Part shown: positions 39,313-51,049 of the stretch, piece by piece
Layout of the letters: each line of letters starts with the position of its first letter
Position numbering within the stretch: position 1 is the first letter of the stretch
Source of the DNA: a bacterium
Lineage (GTDB): Bacteria; Vulcanimicrobiota; Vulcanimicrobiia; Vulcanimicrobiales; SCRA01
Assembly (NCBI GenBank): GCA_004297985.1
Contig: SCRA01000080.1
Coordinates: forward strand, 1 to 64,000
Length of the DNA: 64,000 nucleotides
Direction of reading: 5' to 3'
Position numbers and translations under genes: made by a program
The notes under the pieces: model-generated
Databases searched by the model: none
What the model was told of the DNA's origin: nothing
The model's input: the letters and a program-made list of their open reading frames with translations, nothing else

Positions 39313-40689
39313 GTGTCGTCGACCATGCGTGGCCTACCAGCCGTGCATCGCCTACTCGGTGAACCCGCCGTCGCCGCCTATGGAGCTCTCCTAGGCGGCG
39401 TCGCCCTCACGCGTCTGGCGCGCGAGGTGCTCGACGCCGAGCGCGCGCGCATCCGCGACGAGGGCGGAGCGCCCGCACCGCATGCAGAGCTGGTCGCCCG
39501 CTTGCTCACGCGCTTAGCCGACGAGGAGAGCGCTGGACTCGTGGCCGTGGTCAACGCGGCAGGCGTGCTCGTTCACACGAACCTCGGGCGTGCTCCGTTA
39601 GCGGCGGAGGCACTCGAAGAGATCACACGCATCGGCGCCGGTTACTCCAACGTGGAGTTCGACTTGCGTGAAGGCGTGCGCGGCTCACGCTACGAGCGCG
39701 TCAACGCGCTGCTGCGTGAGATCACGGGCGCCGAGGACGCCGTGGTGGTGAACAACAACGCCGCCGCCGTGCTCTTGGTGCTCGACACCTTCGCCAAGGG
39801 GCGCGAGGTGGTAGTGGCCCGCTCACAGTTGGTGGAGATCGGCGGCGGCTTTCGCATCCCCGACGTCCTGCGCAAGAGCGGCTGCGCGCTCGTGGAGGTC
39901 GGTGCCACCAACAAGACCTACCTCGCGGACTACGCCCGCGCGCTGACGCCGGAGACGGCGCTGCTGTTGCGCTGCCACACCTCCAACTACCGCATCGAAG
40001 GCTTTACGCATGAGGTCGGGGCAGGTGAGTTGTCCGCGCTAGGGTGTCGCGTCGGCATTCCCGTGGTTGAGGACCTCGGCAGCGGGACGCTGGTTGACCT
40101 CACGCGTTACGGGTTGCCGGGCGAGCCCACGGTGCAGCAGGTGGTCGAGGCCGGCGTCGATCTCGTGACGTTCAGCGGTGACAAACTGCTGGGTGGGCCG
40201 CAGGCGGGCATCGTGGTGGGGCGGCGTGCGCTGGTTTCGCGGTTGCGCGCCAACCCGCTGCTGCGCGCGCTACGCGTCGACAAACTGACGCTGGCGGCGC
40301 TCGCGGCGACGCTGCGCCTCTACGCTCAGCCGGATGCCCTGGAGCGCATCCCTCTCTACCACCTTCTTGCGCGCCCCGTCGAGCGTATCGAAGCCCTGCT
40401 CGAGAGCGTGCGCGCGCGCCTAGCGGGGCGCATCGCCGCCGATCTACGCGTGGAGGAGTCGTTGGCGTTCGTTGGCGGCGGCTCGCTTCCCACCACAACG
40501 ATCCGCTCGCGCGCCCTGGCGGTCCACCCGCACCACGGAGACGCCGAGACGCTGGCGCTTCGCTTGCGCGAGAATCGGCCGGCGATCGTGGGGCGTCTGG
40601 AAGGGAACGAAGTGCTGCTCGACGGGCGCGCGCTGCGCGACGATGACGTCGAGGCTGTCCACGACGCGCTCGCACGCATCCTCGGCTAG
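39313..40689 (+). CDS. selA: L-seryl-tRNA(Sec) selenium transferase
   Basis: A 458-aa PLP enzyme that converts Ser-tRNA-Sec to Sec-tRNA-Sec with selenophosphate. The PLP lysine is Lys291 in VTFSGDKLLGGPQAG, equal to Lys295 of E. coli. Other family blocks are VVNAAGVLVHTNLGRAPL, YSNVEFDLREG, and RCHTSNYRIEGF. The start is GTG at 39313; ATG at 39325 is an alternative. selB follows after 17 bp, the usual selAB order. A tRNA-Sec gene (50956) and a probable selenoprotein (44828) lie in the same window. Confidence 0.97.
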   Translation: MSSTMRGLPAVHRLLGEPAVAAYGALLGGVALTRLAREVLDAERARIRDEGGAPAPHAELVARLLTRLADEESAGLVAVVNAAGVLVHTNLGRAPLAAEALEEITRIGAGYSNVEFDLREGVRGSRYERVNALLREITGAEDAVVVNNNAAAVLLVLDTFAKGREVVVARSQLVEIGGGFRIPDVLRKSGCALVEVGATNKTYLADYARALTPETALLLRCHTSNYRIEGFTHEVGAGELSALGCRVGIPVVEDLGSGTLVDLTRYGLPGEPTVQQVVEAGVDLVTFSGDKLLGGPQAGIVVGRRALVSRLRANPLLRALRVDKLTLAALAATLRLYAQPDALERIPLYHLLARPVERIEALLESVRARLAGRIAADLRVEESLAFVGGGSLPTTTIRSRALAVHPHHGDAETLALRLRENRPAIVGRLEGNEVLLDGRALRDDDVEAVHDALARILG

Positions 40690-40706: not shown

Positions 40707-42572
40707 ATGCACATCATCGGAACGGCCGGTCACGTCGACCACGGGAAGTCGTCGCTGGTACTCGCACTGACTGGAACCAATCCCGACCGCTGGCTCGAGG
40801 AGCAGGTGCGCGGGATGACGCTCGATCTGGGCTTCGCGCGCCTGGACCTCGGCGACGGCGTGGAGGCAGGGATCGTCGACGTTCCCGGTCACGAGCGCTT
40901 CCTCCACAACATGCTGGCGGGCGCCGCGGGGATGGAGTTGCTGCTGCTGGTCGTGGCGGCGAACGAAGGGCCACGTCCGCAGACGCGCGAGCACTTGGCG
41001 ATCGTAAGTTATCTCAACGTGCGCCGCGCGCTGATCGTGCTCACCAAGGCCGATCTCGTCGGTGACGAGGAGTTGGCGCTGGCTGAGGAGGCTGTGCGCG
41101 AGGCGGCGCAGGGAACGGTGGCCGAGCACGCGCGCGCCGTCGCTACCTCCAGCGTCAGCGGCCGCGGCCTCGACGAATTGCGCGCGGCCATCCGCGAGGA
41201 GCTGCTGGCGCTCCCGCCCCGGCCGCTCGACGCGCCTGCCTACCTGCCCATCGATCGCTCCTTCGCGTTGCAGGGGCACGGCACGATCGTTACCGGCACG
41301 CTGATGCAAGGGCGCATGCGCGTCGGCGAGGAGCTGATGCTCCAGCCGGGCGAGCGGCGCGTGCGCGTACGCGGTCTGCACGTCTTCAACCGCGCTTTCG
41401 AGGACGTGAGCGCGGGCTCGCGCGTCGCCGTCAACCTCCCGGGCATCGATTATCGAGAGATCCGCCGCGGCATGACGCTGGGAGCTCCGGAGCTTGCGCC
41501 GCGCGATACGCTGACCGTGTGCTTTCGCCCGCCGCAAGAAGCGCTCTCGATGCTGCGCCGGCGCACGAAAGTGCGGGCTCATCTCGGGTCGGCGGAGATT
41601 CTCGGCACGCTCGTCTTCGAGCACGTGCCCGAACGCGCGGAGGAGGTGGAGGCCACGCTCCATCTGCGCGAACCGGCGCTGGCCTTTCCCGGCTCCACGT
41701 TCGTCGTGCGCCGGATGTCACCAAAGGATCTGCTGGGCGGGGGAACGGTGGCCGGCGTCGGCGTGCGCATTCAAGGCGCTGAGGAAGGTGAGGAGTCGCC
41801 CGAGGCGGCGGCGCTTGCCGATGCGCTCGCCGCCTCCGGTCGCGCCCCCCTCTCATTGAACGAGCTGGCCGCGCGCGCGAACGTGCGCGCCGAGCGTGCT
41901 GCGCGGGAGATTGCTGCGCTGGTCGAGGATGGGCGCGTCCTGGAGCTGGCCAAGCCCCTTGCCTATCTCGACGGGGTTGTCGGAACGCGTCTGCTGGCAG
42001 CGGCAAGCGAGACGCTCGCCGCGCGCCACGAGCGCGCGCCATGGGCGCTTGGGCTGCAGGTGCCGGCGCTAGCCCGCGCGATGGCTGTCGAGGAACCGCT
42101 CGGCGTGCGGCTCTTGGCTGTCTTCGCCCACGCAGGAAGCCTGGCGCAGCGTGGGGTCTGGTGGTCCCTGCCGTCGTTCACGCCGCAGTTGAGTAAGGAG
42201 CAGCAGCGATTCTTCGGTGGGGTGCTGGCGGTCGCTCCGCAGACGCCGCTCGTCCCAGTTGCGCTCGCGCTCGTGCTCGAGCGCATCGCGGCTTCAAAGG
42301 TCGAGGGCCTTGCCGATGCGCTGGAGACGCTGTTCGTGGGCGGCGCGCTGGTGAAGGTCAGCGATGAGGTCTATCGCCGCTCACAGATCCAGCAGATTCG
42401 TGCGCATCTCGAGGAGATGCTGCGTGCCAAGGGCGAGTTGACGATGGCCGAGTTTCGGAACATCGTCGGGACCTCACGGAAGTACTGCGTTCCCCTGCTC
42501 GAGTGGTTCGATGCCACGGGCGTAACGGTGCGCGCCGGCGACGTGCGCCGGCTACGCCAGGCTGTTCGCTGA
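40707..42572 (+). CDS. selB: selenocysteine-specific elongation factor
   Basis: A 621-aa GTPase that carries Sec-tRNA-Sec to UGA codons and binds the SECIS hairpin. The G1 motif is [10 protein letters not shown] (8-17), G3 is DVPGHERF and G4 is TKAD. The EF-Tu-like domains fill about 1-350, and the C-terminal 250 residues form the winged-helix repeats that hold the mRNA hairpin (LSKEQQRFF and [23 protein letters not shown]). It overlaps the convergent ABC ATPase gene by 21 bp. Confidence 0.97.
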
Positions 42573-44821: not shown

Positions 44822-44827
44822 AGGAGC

Positions 44828-45262
44828 ATGGACGAGTTGAAGAACGAGACGCGCATCGGGCGCTTCACCGTAGCGGGGCAGCCCACCGACGAGGAGCTGG
44901 AGCACCTGTCTGAGCGAGGCTATGGGCTGGTCGTGAACGTCCGGCCGAGCGAGGAGCTGGAGGAAGCCGAGGAGCCCAAAGTGGTCCATGCGGGATGTGC
45001 GTACGAAAACGTGCCGATCACGCGACAGACGATCTCGCGAGAGCACGTGCTGCGGGTGCGCGAGGCGGCCGATCAAGCCTTGGGACTCGACGTCCTCATC
45101 CACTGAGCGGGTGGGACACGGGCCGCGGTCGTGGCCGCCATCATCGAGTCGGAGACTGACGGGAGCGGGGTGAGGGGGAGTCTCGCCAAGCTCACTCAGG
45201 CCGACTTCGACGTCACCGGAACCCCCTACGAGCGCTTCATCGAGGAGTACTTTACGCACTAA
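44828..45262 (+). CDS. DUF442-family phosphatase-like selenoprotein (Sec at residue 93)
   Basis: A 144-codon gene read through the in-frame TGA at 45104-45106 and ending at TAA 45260-45262. The N-terminal half (FTVAGQPTDEELEHL at 13-27; GYGLVVNVRP at 31-40) matches DUF442, the beta-lactamase-hydrolase-like/dual-specificity phosphatase family. The family's active site is (H/Y)C-R-S-G-T-R; here it reads H92-U93-A-G-G-T-R98, with TGA exactly at the nucleophilic Cys. The 51 codons after TGA keep the genome's bias (44 end in G or C) and complete the domain. A SECIS-like hairpin follows, and selA, selB and tRNA-Sec are in the window. Substrate unknown: phosphate esters, or a persulfide/selenide group, are both possible. 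A TGC-to-TGA error or pseudogene is the alternative. Confidence 0.85.
45107..45142 (+). promoter_or_regulatory. bacterial SECIS element
   Basis: Directly after the TGA, GGCCGC (45121-45126) pairs with GTGGCC (45131-45136, one G-U) around a GGTC loop. A lower helix, GGTGG (45110-45114) with CCATC (45138-45142), is separated by an internal loop. The GG of the loop begins 21 nt after the TGA. A short upper helix with an apical GGUC is what SelB recognises in E. coli fdhF, at nearly the same distance. Confidence 0.8.
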
Positions 45263-50955: not shown

Positions 50956-51049
50956 GGGAGAGTATGGGCCTGGTGGCTCACCCGGTCTTCAAAACCGCGG
51001 AGGCCTTCGCAAGGGGGCTGGTCGGTTCGATTCCGACACTTTCCCGCCA
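50956..51049 (+). tRNA. selC: tRNA-Sec (anticodon UCA)
   Basis: A 94-nt tRNA with the features of bacterial selenocysteine tRNA: an 8-bp acceptor stem (GGGAGAGT 50956-50963 with ACTTTCCC 51038-51045), a D arm with a 4-base loop (TGGT), anticodon loop CTTCAAA with TCA at 50989-50991, a long variable arm (about 50999-51020), a T arm GTCGG-TTCGATT-CCGAC (51021-51037), a G discriminator and an encoded CCA. It serves SelA and SelB encoded 8-11 kb away and reads the TGA at 45104. The anticodon stem has one C-C mismatch. Confidence 0.95.

Follow-up and report, generated by a model that had tools for sequence, protein, structure and literature searches.

A candidate selenoprotein of the DUF442 family, probably a sulfur transferase, in Candidatus Eremiobacterota

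The DUF442 domain of the SQR of Cupriavidus pinatubonensis carries the active-site loop CRTGTR, in which C94 forms a persulfide and the substitution R99I costs about 95% of the activity (PMC6441731, PMC8533005). The DUF442 domain of Blh is likewise a sulfur transferase (PMC5823870). In the related rhodanese/Cdc25 superfamily, loops of seven residues bind phosphate or arsenate, whereas loops of six residues handle sulfur or selenium (PMC6272796). Here, we describe a DUF442 gene in which an in-frame TGA takes the place of the codon for the catalytic cysteine. It lies in a 64,000-nucleotide stretch of DNA, hereafter the window (Table 1). Comparative sequence evidence lends good support to a genuine selenoprotein in which selenocysteine (Sec) takes over from the catalytic Cys: the conservation of the codon, the covariation of the SECIS, the Sec machinery in the window and the presence of Sec-containing FdhA and SelD in the same genome.

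Table 1. Position of the DUF442 gene, its signals and the Sec decoding genes in the window.
Feature	Position	Strand	Evidence
selA, L-seryl-tRNA(Sec) selenium transferase	39313..40689	+	TIGR00474, E 5.4e-166
selB, Sec-specific elongation factor	40707..42572	+	TIGR00475, 303.7 bits, over cut-off
AGGAG, probable ribosome binding site	44822..44826	+	1 nt to ATG 44828, 10 nt to TTG 44837
DUF442 (PF04273) gene, predicted selenoprotein	44828..45262	+	144 aa via TGA readthrough
In-frame TGA, predicted Sec93, catalytic Cys site of the loop H-U-A-G-G-T-R	45104..45106	+	TGA in 16, Cys codon in 5 same-order orthologues
Predicted bacterial SECIS hairpin, stem GGCCGC/GTGGCC	45121..45136	+	loop GGTC (45127-45130), 20 nt past TGA
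tRNA-Sec, anticodon TCA	50956..51045	+	Rfam RF01852, 71.7 bits; ARAGORN

The locus was first picked out by a sequence-only reading, which described a frame with a single in-frame TGA followed by 51 codons up to a TAA, 44 of them with G or C at the third position. All of these figures, and the coordinates of frame and TGA, were reproduced. The TGA falls, as had been claimed, on the nucleophile position of DUF442, where it matches the catalytic Cys in H-U-A-G-G-T-R. The family assignment also stands, since the readthrough product scores above the gathering threshold of PF04273 (BLH_phosphatase, DUF442; E 9.5e-7, 29.6 against 26.1 bits). Among NCBIfam models the lowest E-values belong to Blh, a bifunctional sulfur transferase/dioxygenase (E 3.5e-13), and to the sulfur transferase TIGR01244 (E 3.4e-9), but the scores of both lie below the curated cut-offs (49.2 against 625 bits for NF040641, the model of a two-domain protein, and 36.8 against 85.85 bits for TIGR01244). 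The true start of the gene may be the TTG instead of the ATG, because 'MKNE' is where the proteins of relatives begin and because only 1 nt separates the AGGAG from the ATG.

The sequence-only reading had proposed a search for homologues with Cys at residue 93 and for other genomes with TGA at the same place, and both exist. We analysed 101 genomes, the window's own and its relatives. A clear orthologue is present in 21 of them, 88% to 40% identical to the window protein, with TGA at codon 93 in 16 and TGC or TGT in the other five; these 21 genomes belong to one order of Ca. Eremiobacterota/Vulcanimicrobiota (alias candidate division WPS-2). Fifteen columns are invariant in these orthologues, including His92, Sec/Cys93 and Arg98. 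In seven pairs, dN/dS on the 3' side of the TGA is 0.07-0.34, and in most pairs it is no higher there than on the 5' side. A truncated gene would not show such low values past its stop. TGA forms are confined to this order in a phylum-wide search of 149 genomes, and the readable homologues outside the phylum are Cys forms (Methylobacteriaceae, CRSGTR). Sixty-three pattern matches in viral contigs included no relative of the gene. The tree, in which roughly every second inner branch is weak, gives no clean split between Sec and Cys forms.

Two further observations came out of these searches. Genome G037 carries a second DUF442 copy (L023:1498-1770) whose frame is interrupted near its beginning by a TAG. 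This copy retains the His-TGA and diverges right after it, and it resembles a paralogue in decay that was disrupted directly past the Sec codon. Two public contigs titled 'Rhodospirillales' (L034 and L038) also carry the gene. Since they seem identical to contigs of two genomes of our order (G057 and G005), these MAGs were apparently given the wrong taxon in their titles.

Published rules for bacterial SECIS elements give a loop of 3-9 nt, a stem of 4-16 bp, a G in the first two loop positions and a spacing from the UGA of 16-37 nt (PMC13188914); a further criterion is a minimum free energy of at most -7.5 kcal/mol. The predicted hairpin of the window, 16 nt with a 6-bp stem and -9.8 kcal/mol, falls within all these limits. 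A hairpin of this kind follows the DUF442 TGA and no other among the 1373 TGA triplets of the window. At the same position, a GGTC loop is found in all 16 TGA genes and in none of the five Cys genes, whose loops are AGTC, CACC, GGTG, AGTC and GACC and whose pairing does not exceed that obtained with a shifted partner. Every TGA gene has GCG as codon 100 and GTC as codon 101, whereas both vary among the Cys genes. The stem is made of six standard pairs in 14 TGA genes and of five in the other two. Variants include GGCTGC-GGTC-GTAGCC (L006) and AATCGC-GGTC-GCGATT (L009), the latter with -5.6 kcal/mol alone and -10.5 kcal/mol over 57 nt. Over the 16 genes, 97.9% of the cells are paired, both sides have changed at four of the six pairs, and 12 cells are compensatory. 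This covariation score was matched by none of 500 shuffles, and the signal was lost when the partner was slid by 1-3 columns.

The segment is rich in GC and Ala, and when the protein and the codon usage of the region are kept constant, a 6-bp stem arises by chance about 20% of the time and a stem with GGTC about 4% of the time per gene. Hence, the hairpin of a single genome is weak evidence and the weight is carried by the 16 genomes. One of the Cys (TGC) orthologues, in the Sec-decoding genome G057 (L014:1756-1803), has a stable stem with the loop GACC (-9.5 kcal/mol). It groups with the Sec forms in the tree, at a fork slightly below the starring threshold. The persistence of such a stem in a Cys gene suggests a remnant SECIS, left by a change from Sec to Cys in that lineage.

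The host has a complete set of Sec genes (selA, selB, selC and selD). In the window's genus, the DUF442 gene lies about 2.3 kb downstream of selAB, and tRNA-Sec about 6 kb beyond it. Elsewhere in the genome, selD (380.6 bits) and fdhA (1102.7 bits) have one in-frame TGA each (L026:1532-1534 and L094; contigs C7 and C38). The fdhA hairpin, GGTGCCT-GGTCT-AGGCACC, lies 18 nt past its TGA and has the GGTC loop in common with the DUF442 gene; that of selD, GTCGGC-TCC-GCCGAC, lacks this loop. SelB scores over the cut-off in 80 of the 101 genomes. Relatives keeping the TGA without selA, selB or selC, which would have spoken against the selenoprotein, did not turn up: tRNA-Sec was found in 13 of the 16 TGA genomes and selB over the cut-off in 14, and the rest are partial genes, contig breaks and incomplete assemblies. 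Thus, selB is partial in G005 and G037, and the assembly of G079 is 74% complete. In G003, where tRNA-Sec was not found, the contig with selAB and the DUF442 gene stops shortly after the latter. Genome G013, which keeps the TGA gene as well as selB, is the last of these exceptions. At G013:C55, near 73171-73209 (L093:1500-1540), the 5' half of tRNA-Sec through the anticodon loop (GGTCTTCAAA) is joined to unrelated DNA, and the 3' half was not found within 1.5 kb. This may reflect the insertion of a mobile element at the anticodon loop or a break in the assembly.

What might a Sec-containing DUF442 protein do? The AlphaFold model (pLDDT 94.3, pTM 0.89) has the PTP/DSP-like alpha/beta fold of the solved DUF442 structures. 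Foldseek ranks crystal structures of DUF442 proteins first, 3gxh/3gxg (TMq 0.76-0.82) and 2f46, and places protein tyrosine and dual-specificity phosphatases after them. The loop U-A-G-G-T-R has six residues and follows the H-C-x4-R pattern of DUF442 with Sec for Cys; its second residue is Ala, against the usual Arg of CRTGTR. CX4R is found in all 21 orthologues, none of which has the seven-residue HCX5R signature of phosphatases, while a true CX5R is present in other PTP-like matches of the phylum (e.g. L063-L065). Given this loop and the published biochemistry of DUF442, the protein most probably transfers a sulfur (or selenium) atom rather than removing phosphate. We give a probability of about 0.7 to the joint reading, i.e. 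a genuine selenoprotein that transfers sulfane sulfur, or possibly selenium. The comparative evidence covers the Sec codon, the SECIS, the family and the predicted fold, and we infer the chemistry, the substrate and the physiological role. The initial proposal of a selenoenzyme of this family is supported by conservation, SECIS covariation, the Sec machinery and the in-frame TGA of fdhA and selD. Of the two functions it had suggested, sulfane-sulfur chemistry is favoured over phosphate chemistry by the loop and the family biochemistry.

Under the sulfane-sulfur transferase reading, SelB, tRNA-Sec and the GGTC-loop hairpin would together place Sec, in response to the UGA, at the nucleophile position of a DUF442 domain that stands alone. 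The selenolate of Sec93 would then attack a donor of sulfane sulfur, which may be thiosulfate, polysulfide or a persulfide such as GSSH, with Arg98 assisting the cleavage of the donor. An Se-S(H) intermediate would form, and its sulfur would be handed to an acceptor thiol or to sulfite. The gene neighbourhood was considered as a further clue to function and rejected, since it is not conserved outside the genus. Nearby genes encode an ABC-transporter ATPase, an exonuclease resembling RNase D and a mannosyltransferase-like protein, or, in some relatives, transporters of branched-chain amino acids. SQR, persulfide dioxygenase and TauE are not among the annotated neighbour genes; this counts against the transferase reading, as does the Ala at the second loop position.

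Sec is easily reduced and resists over-oxidation, which counts for another role of the selenoprotein, as a redox enzyme or sensor reducing peroxide, polysulfide or disulfides. The majority of known selenoproteins are indeed redox enzymes (review). Yet, the protein has no second Cys or Ser in a U-x-x-C type motif and no other Cys among the 15 invariant columns, and we hold this role to be unlikely. One might also think of a phosphatase, or of an enzyme of arsenate or other oxyanions, using Sec as a PTP-type nucleophile. The predicted PTP/DSP-like fold, the phosphatase structures among the Foldseek matches and the Pfam label of the family ('phosphatase-like') go in this direction. The loop does not: it is CX4R instead of CX5R, and seven-residue loops are the ones that go with phosphate and arsenate (PMC6272796). 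Nor is there an invariant general-acid Asp in the stretch preceding the loop among the 21 orthologues, and the characterised DUF442 domains transfer sulfur. Such an activity is rather improbable. There is a slimmer chance that the enzyme handles selenium, with the Sec carrying a perselenide or selenosulfide and delivering selenium to SelD; if so, a selenoprotein would be supplying the synthesis of selenoproteins. Finally, that TGA is normally a stop and that G037 has a decayed paralogue with TGA and TAG might suggest a pseudogene, a sequencing error or an ordinary truncated protein of 92 residues, but these highly improbable readings are contradicted by the conservation of the exact TGA in 16 separate assemblies, the purifying selection past it and the compensatory changes in the SECIS, and they sit badly with full Sec machinery and two more genes with in-frame TGA.

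A 2026 inventory of prokaryotic selenoproteins, with 119 families and subfamilies, has no entry for DUF442, PF04273 or TIGR01244, in agreement with the initial remark that no described selenoprotein of this family was known; the nearest entries are the Sec rhodaneses (PF00581) and the arsenate reductases. DUF442 is also absent from the nine new families of the deep-Sep paper, and no paper was found naming DUF442, or Eremiobacterota, together with selenoproteins. This appears to be a real new selenoprotein family inside a known protein family, with a function assigned by homology. Calling it the first is provisional, because subscription papers and unpublished annotations lie outside the scope of our literature search. 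The family would add one more to the prokaryotic selenoproteome, with Sec as the nucleophile of a DUF442 domain of PTP-like type. Cys orthologues occur naturally within the order, and a comparison with them could tell what advantage Sec brings to sulfur transfer. Across these genomes, the gene would be cut to 92 residues by annotation pipelines that end it at the TGA.

The closest known systems are the DUF442 (BLH_phosphatase; PF04273, TIGR01244) domains of the SQR of C. pinatubonensis and of the Blh proteins of Xylella and Agrobacterium. They are of the same family, predicted fold and size (~130-140 aa), and the spacing between the nucleophile and the Arg at the end of the loop is the same (CRTGTR against UAGGTR). 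In contrast, the present protein would have Sec for Cys and has Ala for Arg after the nucleophile, and its gene stands alone, not fused to a partner domain of SQR or ETHE1 type; its scores are under the NCBIfam sulfur-transferase cut-offs. The rhodanese-like selenoproteins of the 2026 inventory (UxxS and UxxG forms) likewise have Sec for the Cys of a sulfurtransferase and a UxxG-type motif, but they belong to another Pfam family (PF00581) than the PTP-like PF04273. Arsenate reductase and arsenate reductase-like selenoproteins (TIGR00014, NF041106) also place Sec at an oxyanion/thiol nucleophile, and they differ in having UxxS or UxxC motifs where DUF442 has its CX4R loop.
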